From Urbifossiella limnaea (GTDB lineage: Bacteria; Planctomycetota; Planctomycetia; Gemmatales; Gemmataceae), in contig NZ_CP036273.1 in NCBI RefSeq assembly GCF_007747215.1, positions 6,308,322 to 6,372,321 of the forward strand: a stretch of 64,000 nucleotides of DNA. Direction: 5' to 3'. The position numbers and the translations under genes are program-made. A model generated the notes under the pieces. It ran no database searches and had not been told where the DNA came from. It worked only from the letters and a program-made list of their open reading frames with translations. Below are positions 55,427-63,481 of this stretch, in pieces. The first letter of the stretch is position 1, and each line of letters opens with the position of its first letter.

Positions 55427-55500
55427 AGCGGTGTGGAGCCGAATGGTAAGGCGGCGCTCTGTTAAAGCGCAATTTGCAGGTTCGATTCCTGCCACCGCTG
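55427..55500 (+). tRNA. tRNA-Asn (anticodon GTT)
   Basis: Acceptor arms AGCGGTG (55427-55433) and CACCGCT (55493-55499) pair fully. The anticodon stem GCGCT/AGCGC encloses loop CTGTTAA, with GTT at 55461-55463. The T arm GCAGG/CCTGC encloses TTCGATT. The D arm is weak (GCC/GGC). The 3' CCA is not encoded. Immediately downstream lies the serine recombinase, so the 3' end is a likely integration site. Confidence 0.93.
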
Positions 55501-55515
55501 CTGCACGGGGATCGG

Positions 55516-57318
55516 CTAACGGTCGGCCGCCGGCCTTTGACCCCGGAAATGACGGTTCAATTCTTTCGTAGCCCCCACGTCTGGATGGAGGGTAATCTCG
55601 CCCCCCTGAAGCTGGTGTCGGCGGCGTTTCCCCGATCCCTCGGTTCGGGTGTGGAGGGTGATTCCAGCGATATGCCGCAAGTACCTCCGCAGGAGAGGGG
55701 AACGTGCGGCCCCGGTCAAGACTGCCACCGGCCGTCCGCCATTCAGTTCCCTCATTTCTTCCAGCAACTCCGTCCAGTCCTCCGGTTGCTCTCTACCGTG
55801 CTCCTGGGCCACACACCGGAAAAGGTAGCTGACCCAGTACAGGGCCTGCAACGCCTGAAACGTTTGCTCATTCAGGTCTGATTCCCCGCCGCCAGTCTTG
55901 CGGAGAGCATTTTCTAGCCGATCTCTCTCTTGTTCCAGCTCCCTAATCGTAGCCTGAGCGTCGGGGATAAACTCGGGGTCGATAAGGACCAACTGCTTGC
56001 GTGCCTTCTCAATTTGAACTGAGAGCTCGCGAACCCGTCCCACGATCTGTTTGCGGTCGATCGCGGGTTGCTCTGGGGGTGAGAGGAGGGACTTTAACCT
56101 TGCGAACCCCTCGGGAAGATCTTCTGGCTTTAGCTCTTTGAGTTCTGCTCGGAAGGCGAGTTGTTCGCCTCCGAGAGCTAAGAACTCCCGGTCCACGAAG
56201 TCTGCAACCTGCAGCAGGACCCGATCTTCGCGAACCTGGGTACCAGAGCATTCCTTACCCCGACTATCGTGGTTCAGACTGCACTTATAGTGGCGATACT
56301 TTGACTGCCTGAGGCCGTGCATCGGGCAAGAGCATCGGCCGCATCTGAGTAGGCCGGATAGGAGGTAAGGATTCTCTTCAGGGCTATAAGGGCTGTGCCC
56401 CACCCTTCGGCCGGCAGCTTTCTGATTCGCAAAAATCCCCTGAGTGCGTTCCCAGATCTCTCTGCTCACGATGGGCTCGTGGTGGTCACGATGGATGATC
56501 CATTCCGATTCCGGCTTCTTGCCCGGCCTTTCAGCCTTCGCTACAGCACGCCCTTTGATCGTGTAATACTTGCCGTGCTCCCATCGCCCTGCTGTGAAGT
56601 CGCCTGCGTATGCTGGGTTCGTGAGGATGACCTTGATTTCGTCGTATCTCCACTTGCCTACTCTTCCACGTGCGGTCGGAACCGCATCGTGATTCAGGCG
56701 GGTTGCGATCGCGTTCATCGATCGCCCATCATCTGCAAACTCCTTATAGATCCGCTGTACAATAAGCCTGTGCCCCGGATCGCCGAGCACTAAACGCCGG
56801 TTCTTCCGCGTGCCTTCCAGCCGGTATGCGTAAGGAGGGCACCCAACCCATCCCCCGTTTTGCATAGCCCCAAGCTGTCCTCGAACAACGTTTCGGCTGT
56901 GATCGAGGAGTTGCTCGTGCTTGCCTTCCTGCTTGACGCTCCCAATGATCCGGTCCACTGACTTCGTCCAGTCGAGAGCCCCGTCTTTCACTGTGACCAG
57001 GTGAACGTTAGCTTGCCGGAGCTGATAGCCGAAGAACCCTTGCTCAAGTGAATCGAACCTGCCGAACCTTGCGTGATCCCAACAGACAATGGCCCGAAAG
57101 TCCCCCCGTGTCTGGGCGTCCTTGATCATCCGAAGGAACTCGACCCGTTTGTCTGTGTTATCCCCAGACACAGCGTCGTCCGAGTACCAGCGAACGAGCA
57201 GGTAGCCCTGCTCCCTTGCGAAGTCCTCGCATGCCCGCTTCTGCTCGGGGATGCTGGCCTCGTCCTGGGCTTTCGAGCTACGGCGCGCATACCCGACCGC
57301 AGGGATTAGTGCTGGCAT
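55516..57318 (-). CDS. Large serine recombinase
   Basis: A 600-residue site-specific recombinase. The catalytic serine is Ser14 in VGYARRSSKAQDEAS; the domain continues with VRWYSDDAVSGDNTDKR. The recombinase domain (DUF-style) contains GCPPYAYRLEG and GKWRYDEIKVILTNPAYAG. A zinc ribbon LLRCGRCSCPMHG ... YKCSLNH lies near 365-395, and a C-terminal coiled coil follows (about 430-540). The start at 57318 is chosen for its fit to family N-termini and an AAGGGG box; an in-frame ATG 22 codons upstream has a GAGG box. GC is lower than neighbours, marking acquired DNA. Confidence 0.93.
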   Translation of the reverse strand: MPALIPAVGYARRSSKAQDEASIPEQKRACEDFAREQGYLLVRWYSDDAVSGDNTDKRVEFLRMIKDAQTRGDFRAIVCWDHARFGRFDSLEQGFFGYQLRQANVHLVTVKDGALDWTKSVDRIIGSVKQEGKHEQLLDHSRNVVRGQLGAMQNGGWVGCPPYAYRLEGTRKNRRLVLGDPGHRLIVQRIYKEFADDGRSMNAIATRLNHDAVPTARGRVGKWRYDEIKVILTNPAYAGDFTAGRWEHGKYYTIKGRAVAKAERPGKKPESEWIIHRDHHEPIVSREIWERTQGIFANQKAAGRRVGHSPYSPEENPYLLSGLLRCGRCSCPMHGLRQSKYRHYKCSLNHDSRGKECSGTQVREDRVLLQVADFVDREFLALGGEQLAFRAELKELKPEDLPEGFARLKSLLSPPEQPAIDRKQIVGRVRELSVQIEKARKQLVLIDPEFIPDAQATIRELEQERDRLENALRKTGGGESDLNEQTFQALQALYWVSYLFRCVAQEHGREQPEDWTELLEEMRELNGGRPVAVLTGAARSPLLRRYLRHIAGITLHTRTEGSGKRRRHQLQGGEITLHPDVGATKELNRHFRGQRPAADR

Positions 57319-57707
57319 AGCTCGCCCCTTGATGGTTTCTGGGATCGTCGGAAGCGAGACTTGCCGGTCGAGAATCGCCGGCATTGCACCTCGGCCCGCT
57401 ATCCAGGCCCATTTTACCACCAGCCGCCGGAAGCAGGCACCTCGATCGGAATCTCCTCCGGCCAGATTCCGCCGGTATGACCCTGCAGCCAAACGCCCTC
57501 TTCTACGTTTGGATACCCTCCCGACCGAGCATCCTGACATGCAAAGCGGTGCCTTTTCTGGAAGGGATGGCAGCTTCTCGGAATCCGGGGAATCGCGGTG
57601 GTCCTCGGCACGACCGGGTGGGATCGTGCGAGCAGGTGGCGGGGATCGCCGGACCTGCGGGACATTCCCGCTGGCAGCCGACGCCCTACCACTAGGAGGA
57701 TCAACCG
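57319..57707. other. 389-base region after the recombinase start
   Basis: It holds the recombinase 5' region and an AGGAGGA ribosome-binding site before 57708. A minus-strand frame across 57414-57947 has a plausible-looking tail near 57414 but overlaps the better plus-strand gene. Nothing else recognised. Confidence 0.4.
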
Positions 57708-58149: not shown

Positions 58150-58590
58150 TTAGGCACTGCTGGGCACCGCCGGGCACGATTTGGCCCCGTTAGAGGGTGA
58201 TTTGTTGGGCCATTGCTGGGCGGGCAGAGTCCTCGTCGAGCCCTCGTACACGTCGTCGAGCCGGAGCTTACCCCGGATCATCAGCATCCGGTCGGTTGCC
58301 CGCCGGTAAAAGTCGAGGAGCGGCCCGGCGACCACCTCCCCTTCCAGAACCCCGATCGCCTGGGCCACCACCTCGTAGCTCGACATGTGGTACCCCACAG
58401 AGTTGAGGCGCTGGGCGCGGCCGGCCAGGCGCCGCTCCGGCAGCTCGACCTCGACGGCCACGGCGAGGAGCGGCAGTCGTTTCACCATCCGGCTCGCCCG
58501 CTTCCAGTTGCCGTCAACTGCTGTTCTCTGGCGATCTGCCGGTACATCCGGCACTTTCGGTCGAAACGCGCTTCCCTCTCCCGAATTCAT
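58150..58590 (-). CDS. Hypothetical protein
   Basis: A 146-residue frame (MNSGEGSAFRPKVPDVPADR; VGYHMSSYEVVAQAIGVLEG; RRATDRMLMIRGKLRLDD). No domain recognised. It has no close partner and is transcribed away from the ParB-like gene. An internal ATG at 58488 is an alternative start. Could be spurious, but the composition looks protein-like. Confidence 0.45.
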   Translation of the reverse strand: MNSGEGSAFRPKVPDVPADRQRTAVDGNWKRASRMVKRLPLLAVAVEVELPERRLAGRAQRLNSVGYHMSSYEVVAQAIGVLEGEVVAGPLLDFYRRATDRMLMIRGKLRLDDVYEGSTRTLPAQQWPNKSPSNGAKSCPAVPSSA

Positions 58591-58729: not shown

Positions 58730-59872
58730 ATGGCCAAAAAACCAGCGGCTCCGGAAGCGAAGCAACCATACGAGCGGGTGGATACCAAGGATCTGTTCCT
58801 TGACCCCACGAACCCTCGTCTGGCTGAGTACTCGCTCGGCGAGGAGCCGACGCAGGCGGACCTACTACGAGTCCTCTGGGAGAAGATGGCGGTTGACGAA
58901 CTGGCCATGTCCATCGCCTCCAGCGGCTACTTCGACCACGAACCCGTCTTCGTCGCAACCGAGGGCGGTAAGGACATCGTGATCGAGGGAAATCGCCGAC
59001 TGGCTGCAGTCAAAATACTGCTCGACGACAGCCTGCGGAAGCGGCTGAAGATTGATGACCTGCCTCGCATTTCGGCTGAACTCCGCCAGGATCTTCAGCA
59101 GCTCCCAATCATACGGACCGATCGCAAGAGCATTTGGCAGTACATCGGCTTCAAGCACGTAAATGGGCCGGCGAAATGGGGCTCCTATGCCAAGGCCCAG
59201 TACATCGCCGAGGTAAGGAAGAATTTCGGCATCTCACTAGAGAAAATTGCGGAACAGATCGGTGACAGGAACCGAACCGTCCAGCGGTTATACCGAGCCA
59301 TGATGGTCATCCGCCAAGCCGAGGATGCGAAGGTCTTCGCGCGCGAGAACCGCTTCAAGCAGAGCTTCTCGTTCTCTCACCTCTACACCGGGTTAGATTA
59401 CGACGGGTTCAAGCGGTTTCTCGACCTCAGCGACGAGACATCCGAATCCGACAAACCTGTTCCTCGGCCGAAGCTGAAGCATCTCGGCGAGCTCTGCAAA
59501 TGGCTTTATGGGGACCGGCGAGACAAGACGCGCCCCCTGATCGAGAGCCAAAACCCCGACCTGGCGATACTCGACGAAGTCCTAATGAAGGACAACGCGA
59601 TCGACACGCTTCGCAACGGCCTTCCTCTGAAGGTCGCTCACGATGTCAGTCGCGGCGATGAACGCATCTTCCGGGAATCGCTCCAAGAGGCCAAGAGGGT
59701 ATTGCAAACGGCCCTCGGTACGCTAACCACGGGATTCAAGAGGGAAGATACGGACCTGGTGCGAACTGCAAACCAGATCGCCGAGCTGGTCGACGACATC
59801 GTAGAGCAAATGGAAAGGAAGAGAAAGCCGAAGAGGCGGCATCGGATGTCGGAGGATGACGAGGATGTTTAA
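58730..59872 (+). CDS. ParB/Srx-like DNA-binding protein
   Basis: A 380-residue protein. The ParB/Srx N-terminal domain (about 18-115) has DLFLDPTNPRLAEYS and the nucleotide-binding box VIEGNRRLAAVKILL (about 83-97). A KorB-like HTH follows (about 143-190: YAKAQYIAEVRKNFGISLEK, then EQIGDRNRTVQRLYRAMMVI). The C-terminus is basic and ends KRHRMSEDDEDV-like acidic. It is not beside parA, so segregation is unlikely. It precedes and overlaps the nuclease gene by 17 bases and probably recognises or regulates the cassette. Confidence 0.85.
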   Translation: MAKKPAAPEAKQPYERVDTKDLFLDPTNPRLAEYSLGEEPTQADLLRVLWEKMAVDELAMSIASSGYFDHEPVFVATEGGKDIVIEGNRRLAAVKILLDDSLRKRLKIDDLPRISAELRQDLQQLPIIRTDRKSIWQYIGFKHVNGPAKWGSYAKAQYIAEVRKNFGISLEKIAEQIGDRNRTVQRLYRAMMVIRQAEDAKVFARENRFKQSFSFSHLYTGLDYDGFKRFLDLSDETSESDKPVPRPKLKHLGELCKWLYGDRRDKTRPLIESQNPDLAILDEVLMKDNAIDTLRNGLPLKVAHDVSRGDERIFRESLQEAKRVLQTALGTLTTGFKREDTDLVRTANQIAELVDDIVEQMERKRKPKRRHRMSEDDEDV

Positions 59873-60812
59873 AATCGGCACTGCTCCGACGCACACCGAA
59901 GACGCCATTCATCATGCTGACTATATCGAGCTCGAATGCCTGAAGAAATCGAACGGCTCTTTCTCGGGCGGCGACCTGGCAGCTGTCTTTAGCCGCCTGA
60001 ACGACGACCTACCAGAGGACCGGCGGGACGCTGATCTTGATACGGAGAATGCGATCCGGGAAGCGTTCGCAGAGCTGGGAGACCGCATCGAGCATTCAGG
60101 CAGGCGCGGCCATCGTTACCCATACAAGCTGAATAGAAACGCGGATGTGCTCACGTTTGACACGAATATTAAGGCATTTGATCTGTATCTGTTTCTGCTC
60201 ACTGCGACTCGCTTGAATATGGGGGAAGACCGCGTCCACGAAGGTATCGACGGCGCGGAGTTATTCGAGCAAGTCTGCTGCGAAGTTGCGAAGAACTATT
60301 GGGGGAAGGATGCAGAGGCTCTCGTATTTGGCACGGCGCGCCGCGTGGACGGGCGCGAGGTCGCCGGATTCGAGGCGGCCGTCGATCATCTGTGCAAATC
60401 GATGAAGGAGAGCGACGGGTTCTGCAACAACTACAACGACGCTATCACGGCCCAAGATGGAAAGCTCGATGTGGTGGTCTGGAAGCCGTTCACGGACCAG
60501 CGCCGAGGCCAACTGATTGGGTTCGGACAGTGCAAGACTGGGACGCACTGGTCGGCGGGGCTGTTTACGCTCCAGCCTGATGGGTTCTGCAAGAAGTGGG
60601 TATGGCCTGCGCCTGTCGTTGATCCTGTTCGCCTTTACTTCATCACCGCGAGGGTAAAGCAGTCAAAGTGGAATGAGGTGAACGTCGATGCCGGTATCTT
60701 TTTTGACCGATGCCGGATTATGGATTACGCCCCACCAATGCCTACGCTTCGCCAGCAGTGGATCAAATGGACGCGGGCGGCTTTGCTGTCTCATGGAATC
60801 ACCATGCCATGA
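59856..60812 (+). CDS. Putative PD-(D/E)XK nuclease
   Basis: A 318-residue protein with a candidate restriction-fold core: Asp205 in GKLDVVVWKPF and Gln225/Lys227 in LIGFGQCKTGTHW, matching a D-xn-QxK variant of PD-(D/E)XK. The remainder (for example AIREAFAELGDRIEHSGRRG) is unassigned. Its ATG overlaps the ParB-like gene by 17 bases and its TGA overlaps the methyltransferase ATG by four, which supports one functional unit. Cleavage activity is not shown by sequence alone. Confidence 0.6.
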   Translation: MTRMFKIGTAPTHTEDAIHHADYIELECLKKSNGSFSGGDLAAVFSRLNDDLPEDRRDADLDTENAIREAFAELGDRIEHSGRRGHRYPYKLNRNADVLTFDTNIKAFDLYLFLLTATRLNMGEDRVHEGIDGAELFEQVCCEVAKNYWGKDAEALVFGTARRVDGREVAGFEAAVDHLCKSMKESDGFCNNYNDAITAQDGKLDVVVWKPFTDQRRGQLIGFGQCKTGTHWSAGLFTLQPDGFCKKWVWPAPVVDPVRLYFITARVKQSKWNEVNVDAGIFFDRCRIMDYAPPMPTLRQQWIKWTRAALLSHGITMP

Positions 60813-61906
60813 GACACCGCTTCCATGCCATCTGTCCTTATTTCGCCATGTTCCCCGAGTCGTTCGCGGAGCAGTGGATCGGCGAGTTAACACGCAAGGG
60901 CGATGTGGTTCTTGATCCGTTCAGCGGACGCGGCACGACCGCGTTTCAAGCCGTATTGATGGGCAGGAAACCTGTAGCGTGCGACGTGAATGACGTGGCT
61001 TACTGCATCACGAAAGCAAAGGTCCAGGCACCTTCTTTGACGAGCGTGCTTCGTCGTCTGACTGTTCTTGAGAGTGGCTACAAAAAGGGAGAATGGCTGC
61101 GGCGTGCCAGGTCGATGCCGGAGTTCTTTCATGTCGCGTACCATAACGACACGCTGCGCCAGACGCTTTACCTGCGAGATGCCTTGGACTGGCGGAAGAA
61201 TCGGACGGATTGCATGCTGGCTGCGATCGCCCTCGGGGCGCTGCATGGGGAGACGAATAAATCGCCTTCCTACCTCAGTAACCAGATGCCCCGCACGATC
61301 AGCACGAAACCGGCGTACTCGGTGAAGTTTTGGCGAGACCGCAACCTCCTGCCTCCGGAGCGCGATGCGTTTGCGCTACTCCGCACGCAGGCTCGTTACC
61401 GCTATGAGTCGCCCCCCCCAGAAGGCGAGGCAACTGTAATCCATGGTGACATGCGTCACCTATCTTGGGAAAAGGACACTTTGCCTGGGCCGATCCGACT
61501 CGCAGTCACCTCCCCTCCTTACCTTGATGTTACCAACTTCGAGGAGGACCAGTGGCTCCGCTTGTGGTTTCTTGGTGGACCACCGAACCCGACTCGGCAC
61601 CGTGTTTCGCGCGATGATCGTTACGAGACGCAAGTTAGCTACTGGTCGTTCATTGCTGACATGTGGCGGATGCTCGGGGCTGTCATGGCGAAGAAAGGCC
61701 ATGTAGTCATTCGCCTAGGGGGGCGAGGTCAGGAGATCGACTCGATGCAAAAGAAGCTTGCCTCTACTTGCTCTTTTAGCGGCCGTCGTGTTGAACTGGT
61801 TTCGCACAGCTATAGCGAATTGAAGAAGAGGCAGACGGATTCCTTTCAGCCGGGGACCAAGGGGTGCCTGGTTGAACTGGACTGCCATTTTCAGTTTATA
61901 TCATAG
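60809..61906 (+). CDS. DNA methyltransferase (N4-C or N6-A)
   Basis: A 365-residue SAM-dependent DNA amino-methyltransferase. Motif I is DPFSGRGTT (36-44); motif IV is TSPPY (234-238 in AVTSPPYLD). The order, motif I first with about 190 residues before TSPPY, suggests an alpha-like arrangement, with the intervening part as target recognition domain. The ATG at 60809 is chosen because it overlaps the nuclease stop as ATGA; an earlier in-frame ATG would create a 100-base overlap. SPPY is common in N4-cytosine enzymes. Presumed to protect host DNA. Confidence 0.9.
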   Translation: MRHRFHAICPYFAMFPESFAEQWIGELTRKGDVVLDPFSGRGTTAFQAVLMGRKPVACDVNDVAYCITKAKVQAPSLTSVLRRLTVLESGYKKGEWLRRARSMPEFFHVAYHNDTLRQTLYLRDALDWRKNRTDCMLAAIALGALHGETNKSPSYLSNQMPRTISTKPAYSVKFWRDRNLLPPERDAFALLRTQARYRYESPPPEGEATVIHGDMRHLSWEKDTLPGPIRLAVTSPPYLDVTNFEEDQWLRLWFLGGPPNPTRHRVSRDDRYETQVSYWSFIADMWRMLGAVMAKKGHVVIRLGGRGQEIDSMQKKLASTCSFSGRRVELVSHSYSELKKRQTDSFQPGTKGCLVELDCHFQFIS

Positions 61907-62216: not shown

Positions 62217-62308
62217 TGGCCGTCACGCCGACGCAGTTGGCGATGCTCCTCTGCGGCCTCGACCCGGCCAAGGCCCGCGCACGCCGCCGGTACAAAACGC
62301 CGGCGTGA
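62217..62308 (+). pseudogene. IS66 TnpB C-terminal fragment
   Basis: A frame reading VTPTQLAMLLCGLDPAKARA then RRRYKTPA and TGA matches the C-terminal end of the IS66 TnpB (Orf2) protein. Only this end is present; the rest is replaced by the transposase remnant upstream. Its TGA overlaps the next frame's ATG as TGATG, as in intact IS66 operons. Confidence 0.55.
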
Positions 62309-62700
62309 TGCGCTACCGCGACCACTCCGCCGGTGTTGAATCCGGCATGCCGCCGACCGACGAGTGCGACGACCTCCGCCGCAAGTTGGCCCACGCCGAG
62401 GCCGTGATCGCCGAACTCCGCGGCGTCGTGGCCGACCTCCGGAAGCAGGTCGAGGCGCAGCAGGCCCACATCCACCGCCTGGTGAAAATGACGTTCGGCC
62501 GCGGCGGCGAGCGGGTCGAAGGCCCGACCATGTTCGACGGGATCGACCCGCCGGAAGCCGAGTTGCCCCCGCCGCCGGTCGAGCCGCCGGCCCCCGAACC
62601 ACCGGCCTCGACGAAGCGGAAGTTCGGCCGCCTCCAGGAAGACCTCCTTGAGCGATTCGCGCTCCCGCCGTCGGTCAGTGAATCGCGACCCCGACTGTAA
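62308..62700 (+). pseudogene. IS66 TnpC N-terminal fragment
   Basis: 130 residues. The Leu-zipper-like N-terminus DDLRRKLAHAEAVIAELRG and HIHRLVKMTFGRGGERVEG resemble the opening of IS66 TnpC, which is normally about 500 residues. The frame ends early at 62700, so it is truncated. Confidence 0.55.
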
Positions 62701-62974: not shown

Positions 62975-63481
62975 GTGGCAATCGTCAACTATGGCCTGTT
63001 CTGGCAGCGGGAGGAAGTGAACTGGAAGCCGGGACAGGGAGGGCAGTTTCGCCTGCTTGGCCGGAACGGGGTGAATAAGCCCGGCCTTCGCGTGGCGGAC
63101 TTCCGTGAGCAGACGGGCGTTTACATCCTCTACGGCAACTACGGGGTCTTCCGCGTCGGGATCGTTACGGAATCGCGTCTCGGCATTCGGCTACGTGACC
63201 ACCACACGAACTACAGTGAACACGAGTGGGACCGCTTTTCGTGGTTCGGGTTCCGTGCCGTGGACTGGAGCCCCGACGAAACGGGCGTGTGCGGGTTGAA
63301 CGATACCCGCTATCTCGATGCCGAAGCCTGGATTAGAGACATCGAATCGTTACTGATTCGGGCGATGGGGCCGACGGGCCAGCGTATCGAGAACTTCCGC
63401 TACGAAGAACGCTGGGAACAAGTCCCGGAGAGCGATGCAGTGTACTGGTTGAACAAGGTTCGGCCCGCCGGGGACGACTAA
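62975..63481 (+). CDS. GIY-YIG-like nuclease-domain protein
   Basis: A 168-residue protein with a GIY-YIG-like core: TGVYILYGNYGVFRVGIVTE (about 47-66) supplies the GVY and VGI strands, then RLGIRLRDHHTN with candidate Arg and HDH-like residues. The C-terminus is variable. GTG start with an AGAAGG box 11 bases upstream. It may be an orphan or a defence-island nuclease. The catalytic Tyr pattern is degenerate, so activity is uncertain. Confidence 0.65.
   Translation: MAIVNYGLFWQREEVNWKPGQGGQFRLLGRNGVNKPGLRVADFREQTGVYILYGNYGVFRVGIVTESRLGIRLRDHHTNYSEHEWDRFSWFGFRAVDWSPDETGVCGLNDTRYLDAEAWIRDIESLLIRAMGPTGQRIENFRYEERWEQVPESDAVYWLNKVRPAGDD

Follow-up and report, generated by a model that had tools for sequence, protein, structure and literature searches.

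The stretch of DNA analysed here, hereafter the window, comprises 64,000 nt of Urbifossiella limnaea (contig NZ_CP036273.1, positions 6,308,322 to 6,372,321 of the forward strand) and contains three overlapping genes, the triad, that encode a ParB-like protein, a predicted PD-(D/E)XK nuclease and a DNA methyltransferase, and that probably form a restriction-modification (RM) operon. The genes and their key motifs are located as follows, residues being numbered from the listed starts:

58730..59872, + strand: ParB-like gene, an open reading frame (ORF) of 380 aa with a ParB/Srx nucleoside triphosphate (NTP)-binding fold at ca. residues 12-148, a helix-turn-helix (HTH) DNA-binding domain at ca. 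150-290 and C-terminal helices
58985..59008, + strand: EGNRRLAA, which corresponds to the P-motif (Box II) of ParB, residues 86-93
59856..60812, + strand: nuclease gene, an ORF of 318 aa with a winged helix at its N-terminus and a PD-(D/E)XK domain at its C-terminus
60456..60542, + strand: predicted nuclease active site, D201-x3-D205 ... Q225-C-K227, with strands at residues 206-210 and 220-227
60809..61906, + strand: amino DNA methyltransferase gene, an ORF of 365 aa with the order motif I, probable target-recognition domain, motif IV

The first-pass annotation of this DNA had described three same-strand genes overlapping by 17 and 4 bp, and all three ORFs were found as described. The 17 bp shared by the ParB-like and nuclease genes (59856-59872) apply when the nuclease is started at its first ATG; the true start is probably at 59865, where a MFKIG start, conserved in the closest relative (locus L002), reduces the overlap to 8 bp. 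The nuclease and methyltransferase genes share the 4 bp ATGA (60809-60812), an overlap that is identical in L002, and homologues favour 60809 as the methyltransferase start although the ORF as listed opens at 60710. The G+C content of the triad (0.56-0.57) is far below that of the window (0.71), so the triad looks acquired; its third-position G+C is 0.66-0.73 versus 0.95 in one neighbouring gene.

Sequence matches of the ParB-like protein are marginal (TIGR00180, E 6e-5, under the family cut-off); among profiles it matches PHROG 3694, a family of unknown function (E 5e-74), and PD-Lambda-5_A of PADLOC (E 3.5e-20, residues 21-179), which describes the ParB-like component of the phage defence system PD-lambda-5. 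An AlphaFold2 model built from a 54-sequence alignment has a mean predicted local distance difference test score (pLDDT) of 93, and its best match in the PDB is KorB (8qa9; Z 10.3 over 198 residues), aligned from residue 13 to 289 and thus over both the nucleotide and the HTH domains. ParB bound to CTPgammaS (7bnr, Z 10.0) and Noc (Z 8.8) follow, while SspE reaches merely Z 3.9. The nucleotide pocket is strongly conserved, with E86, G87, N88 and R90 identical in all 73 pairs of ParB-like protein and nuclease compared (see below) and R89 in 72 of them. Several ParB-like proteins need an arginine of this motif to bind NTPs, and the fold may accept CTP, ATP or GTP, a choice that is not predictable from sequence (PMC12704722).

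For the nuclease, no family was found in Pfam, NCBIfam or PADLOC, and a phmmer search against PDB sequences gave no useful match. Its AlphaFold2 model (pLDDT 91, predicted template modelling score 0.91) consists of an N-terminal winged helix, for which the structural look-alikes are winged helices (BrxR, Z 5.6), and of a C-terminal alpha-beta core, for which they are nearly all nucleases, namely AF1548 (1y88, Z 7.8), MspJI (7.2), BsmI (7.1), BsaWI (6.8), FokI (6.3) and relatives of Card1/Can2. The core strands carry the PD-(D/E)XK pattern D ... (D/E/Q)xK, D205 standing where one strand begins and Q225-x-K227 on the following one; D205 is kept in 72/72 aligned nucleases and Q225 in 71. The catalytic-type lysine is more variable: 66 of the 72 have it at position 235 only, five at 227 only and one at both, and the 66 have A, G or T in place of the lysine at 227. 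Lysine at 227 is found in the clade of the window, in which five of the six sequences have none at 235, and the difference is a single event on the tree. This is the pattern expected from relocation of the catalytic lysine inside a predicted PD-(D/E)XK site. Together, model and conservation support a winged-helix PD-(D/E)XK enzyme. The composition proposed for the triad on first reading is thus retained, the nuclease having a winged helix and its ParB-like partner the nucleotide pocket of ParB and an HTH domain.

The methyltransferase of the window has motif I at residues 36-42, followed after ca. 190 residues by TSPPY (residues 234-238). Because this order is permuted, with motif I before TSPPY, Pfam N6_N4_Mtase (E 5.7e-14) aligns by its C-terminal end only, to residues 11-64, whereas the PADLOC type II methyltransferase model MTase_II covers residues 3-304 (E 1.9e-31). 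The combination of TSPPY with an alpha-like motif order had been called uncommon; the order is as described and is indeed uncommon, yet it is shared with known type II models. By its motifs, the enzyme is predicted to be an amino DNA methyltransferase with m4C or m6A as product.

Similar loci were retrieved by ParB or nuclease similarity alone, and profile searches of all loci followed by clustering at 90% identity resulted in 73 pairs. A scan of bacterial genomes detected L002, a metagenome-assembled Planctomycetales genome whose nuclease is 54% identical to that of the window. The nuclease also has matches in two further genomes of the phylum of the window, and the triad is present in G305 as well. 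The triad recurs in L002, L003, L010 (a Mesorhizobium plasmid), L036, L042, L057, L058 and L114 and was also found in Vibrio campbellii (L011). More distant pairs, detected by tblastn, are carried by phage W-phi (a prophage of E. coli W), by P2 isolates, by a plasmid of Persicobacter and by a contig of a gut phage, and viral contigs contributed 13 loci via the nuclease and 80 via the ParB-like protein. This recurrence is not due to chance, and the absence of the triad elsewhere, which the first-pass annotation had named as the result that would speak against it, was not observed. In L004 (G081 C83) the triad has decayed: its ParB ORF is truncated, and the beginning of the nuclease gene runs in frame into the region for the methyltransferase C-terminus. 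In L108 the nuclease gene is split by ca. 0.9 kb.

A P2-like portal gene lies in the same stretch in 28/73 loci, 23 of which also have a replication gene, with the pair in either orientation. As the P2 defence hotspot lies between the replication endonuclease and the portal (PMC9519451), these loci sit in a known site of defence gene carriage. In complete E. coli genomes, the C5 methylase that accompanies such pairs (see below) occurs in 139 of 5,426 (ca. 2.6%), with 103 pairs of W-phi type and 36 of O145 type, the two types being very different from each other; none of the 5,426 genomes has a C5 methylase of this kind without the pair. The family, which occurs in this share of E. coli genomes and also in numerous P2-like phages, carries no annotation beyond "ParB N-terminal domain-containing protein" and, for the nuclease in RefSeq, "hypothetical protein" next to a cytosine methylase. 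No published description of the triad was found in the open-access literature, which is weak evidence that the layout is undescribed, and an unpublished member may have been deposited. The recurrence of the pair beside unrelated kinds of methylase points to a largely unrecognised family of RM systems. In two E. coli genomes, H11 (NZ_CP173544.1) and H93 (NZ_CP172163.1), insertion sequences (ISKpn26, IS1) are present within the locus.

A methyltransferase gene occurs within 1.2 kb of 67/73 pairs, in line with the earlier restriction-like reading of nuclease plus methyltransferase. There are 34 of C5 type (PF00145), 25 of D12 type (PF02086; labelled Dam after the family and not after GATC specificity) and 8 of the TSPPY type of the window, counts that are not population frequencies since viral-contig loci are weighted to prophages. 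Homologues of the window enzyme occupy the same position in L002, L003, L010, L036, L042, L057 and L058. The three classes are non-homologous, share the spot on either strand and replace one another at least four times on a tree of the concatenated ParB-like and nuclease proteins, on which the class labels cluster much more strongly than after shuffling. A switch is seen within the clade of the window itself, L002 and L036 having the TSPPY type downstream and the adjoining L033, L020 and L035 the Dam type upstream. Elsewhere in viral loci, the methyltransferase searches matched only L039/L040 and L054. Three non-homologous classes in the same place would be expected if the function that is needed is the methylation of a site and not one given protein.

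Methylases of the C5 branch resemble M.HaeIII over their full length (1dct, E 1.6e-48), and the signature SRNRxxxW...TI...R...LHPxSP, which aligns with the HaeIII target-recognition region, is kept in 31 of 32 members examined; this branch is therefore predicted to recognise GGCC or a derivative. Methylases that are 97% identical accompany ParB-like proteins of 32-34% and nucleases of 21-26% identity in L005 and L009, and the same pattern is found for L031/L073 and L021/L098, in which near-identical HaeIII-type methylases sit beside pairs that are 20-34% identical. Methylase alleles are thus passed among P2-like phages separately from the restriction pair.

We consider it likely, with a probability of roughly 0.8, that the triad is a restriction-modification operon whose restriction part is made of two proteins, the ParB-like protein and the nuclease. 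This reading draws on the arrangement of the genes, the folds predicted for their products, the conservation of the pockets, the recurrence of the pair and the exchange of methyltransferase classes. In such a system the methyltransferase would mark host sites, and the ParB-like protein, built like KorB and ParB, would bind DNA through its HTH domain and switch state with the nucleotide in its pocket. Where the DNA is unmodified, it would load or activate the winged-helix nuclease, which would then cut that DNA. Site binding or clamp loading, together with nucleotide gating, is proposed because of the KorB-like HTH domain and the NTP pocket; we infer that the pair reads an unmethylated site and that cleavage is controlled by the binding or hydrolysis of a nucleotide. 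Whether recognition falls to the ParB-like protein rather than to the winged helix of the nuclease is close to an even question, with the odds slightly against the former.

Several observations weigh against this restriction-modification reading. All structural matches of the nuclease stay under Z 8 and the Foldseek E-values are weak, so that the PD-(D/E)XK assignment leans on topology and conserved residues. No domain of the pair clearly tracks the divergence of the methyltransferase (in the C5 set, the partial rank correlations are 0.35 with the nuclease core, 0.08 with the HTH domain of ParB and -0.06 with the winged helix), so specificity is not placed on any one of them. Finally, a methyltransferase was not detected for six pairs, two of which lie at contig ends (L069 and L027). 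Among the others, the Persicobacter pair (L006) has no adjacent methyltransferase, and both pairs of L008 and that of L012 sit by Z1-domain proteins (L012 also by a DUF4420 protein) with none detected in their neighbourhood; an adjacent methyltransferase is therefore not obligatory. The two pairs of L008 face each other.

Among the alternatives, the ParB-like protein could act as a controller, comparable to type II C proteins or to the KorB repressor, with the nuclease alone responsible for restriction. That its best structural match is a repressor, over both the NTP and HTH domains, agrees with this, but PD-lambda-5 fuses the same ParB domain to a different C-terminal effector, and the ParB-like protein and the nuclease stay together in 73 pairs while the methyltransferases change, whereas a protein that only regulates would not require so close a link to the effector; we regard this explanation as improbable. 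About equally improbable is an abortive system in which phage sensing would free the nuclease on all DNA including that of the host, with the methyltransferase as a guard and not a site mark. It has a precedent in PD-lambda-5, which its authors call an RM plus abortive infection (Abi) version (PMC9519451), but the C-terminal effector of that system is unrelated in sequence to the nuclease (hhalign probability 0.3%), and three methyltransferase classes, with a conserved HaeIII-type recognition region in 31 of 32 C5 members, better fit site-specific self-marking.

The pair could also be a modification-dependent, type IV-like enzyme that cleaves foreign DNA carrying methylation or hypermodification, as the ParB-like GmrSD does. 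A weak Pfam match to the GmrSD N-terminal domain (E 0.06, under cut-off) and the occurrence of ParB/Srx folds in GmrSD (PMC5512222) speak for this. The best folds are nevertheless those of canonical ParB and KorB, and a methyltransferase residing in most loci would be suicidal for an enzyme that cuts its product, which makes this explanation very unlikely. Least likely of all is that the pair serves the partition or replication of a mobile element, with the methyltransferase as an anti-restriction accessory. The ParB-like fold and the frequent prophage location agree with it, but no ParA was seen among the annotated neighbours, the loci are placed in the P2 defence hotspot with conserved phage genes on either side, the copy in the window is on the chromosome next to a recombinase, and partition would have no use for a conserved PD-(D/E)XK active site.

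The surroundings of the triad in the window include two further annotated features:

55427..55501, + strand: tRNA-Asn, detected by ARAGORN, next to the recombinase gene
55516..57540, - strand: large serine recombinase, upstream of the triad, with Pfam domains Resolvase, Recombinase and Zn_ribbon_recom

The recombinase indicates a mobile context and is not part of the machinery of the triad. A degenerate tRNA-Gln-like sequence (ca. 55505-55577) follows tRNA-Asn and includes the stop codon of the recombinase gene (55516), while in L133, of the same genus, intact tRNA-Asn and tRNA-Gln(TTG) occur in tandem; the degenerate sequence is possibly an integration site. Another close copy of tRNA-Gln(TTG) was not found in the genome of the window, and only the left boundary of integration was located. 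A DTW-domain fragment slightly under the Pfam cut-off lies antisense up to the start of the ParB-like gene (ca. 58150-58520, - strand). Directly downstream of the triad, a short ORF (62305-62700, + strand) with a SlyX-like coiled coil resembles, on visual inspection, the N-terminal region of an IS66-type transposase, and further on a 168-aa ORF (62975-63478, + strand; VYILYGNYGVFRVGIV) looks by eye like a GIY-YIG nuclease and has no Pfam or PHROG match.

With the CTP clamps ParB, KorB and Noc, the ParB-like protein of the triad has in common the NTP pocket and its arrangement with the HTH domain, both of which are present, but its partner is a nuclease, no ParA was seen, and at the position of the third ParB motif it has the signature G[FY][RK]H[IV]xGxxxW instead. 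Type II restriction-modification systems likewise associate a nuclease, here recognised by its fold and active-site residues, with a linked and cognate-looking methyltransferase, M.HaeIII-like in the C5 branch; in the triad, however, the restriction part consists of two proteins, one of which is of ParB/KorB type. GmrSD, SspE (DUF262) and DndB also place a ParB/Srx-superfamily domain in a DNA modification or restriction setting. These are DUF262/DGQQR- or DGQHR-type proteins, and GmrSD carries an HNH domain; the triad has instead a canonical EGNRR pocket of ParB type, a KorB-like HTH domain and a separate PD-(D/E)XK nuclease, with no Pfam match to an HNH domain and no more than the sub-threshold GmrSD match given above. 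PDC-M38A, a PADLOC candidate that is ParB-like over its full length, gave no match in 246 genomes of the phylum, in which the controls were equally silent.

The closest comparison is with PD-lambda-5, true copies of which are present in four loci from the phylum of the window. The ParB-like N-terminal domain is common to both (hhalign probability 99.9%, E 4e-32). The PD-Lambda-5_B (D12) family also takes in the methylase of the Dam branch, as in the Vibrio locus (E 7e-95). PD-lambda-5, however, is made of two genes, and its ParB protein bears an unrelated helical C-terminal effector, whereas the triad combines a ParB-like protein, one half of which is HTH, with a separately encoded PD-(D/E)XK nuclease as effector. 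PADLOC alignments end at ca. residue 200 of the ParB-like protein of the window, and the window has the TSPPY type in place of D12, so that two defining features are lacking and the triad is not filed as PD-lambda-5. That PD-Lambda-5_A might be a plain fusion of ParB and nuclease was considered and rejected, its C-terminus giving an hhalign probability of only 0.3% with the nuclease. Judging from sequence, the triad is a sibling of PD-lambda-5 with a shared ParB domain and another effector. PD-lambda-5 gives E. coli broad protection against phages (Vassallo et al. 2022; PMC9519451), which by analogy supports a sensor role of the ParB domain. A broader and rather doubtful extension is that prokaryotic immunity uses ParB-type NTP clamps generally as a discrimination module that can be swapped between systems, which would scan DNA for the missing methylation of an exchangeable methyltransferase and pass the signal to interchangeable effectors, a PD-(D/E)XK nuclease in the triad and a helical Abi-like domain in PD-lambda-5, restriction being gated by a sliding nucleotide-dependent clamp and not by the site recognition of the nuclease itself. 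The restriction-modification reading of the triad, if confirmed, would already tie the nucleotide switch of ParB, known from the partition of chromosomes, to the discrimination of self from non-self DNA, and would allow the question of what the ParB domain shared with PD-lambda-5 senses to be put directly.

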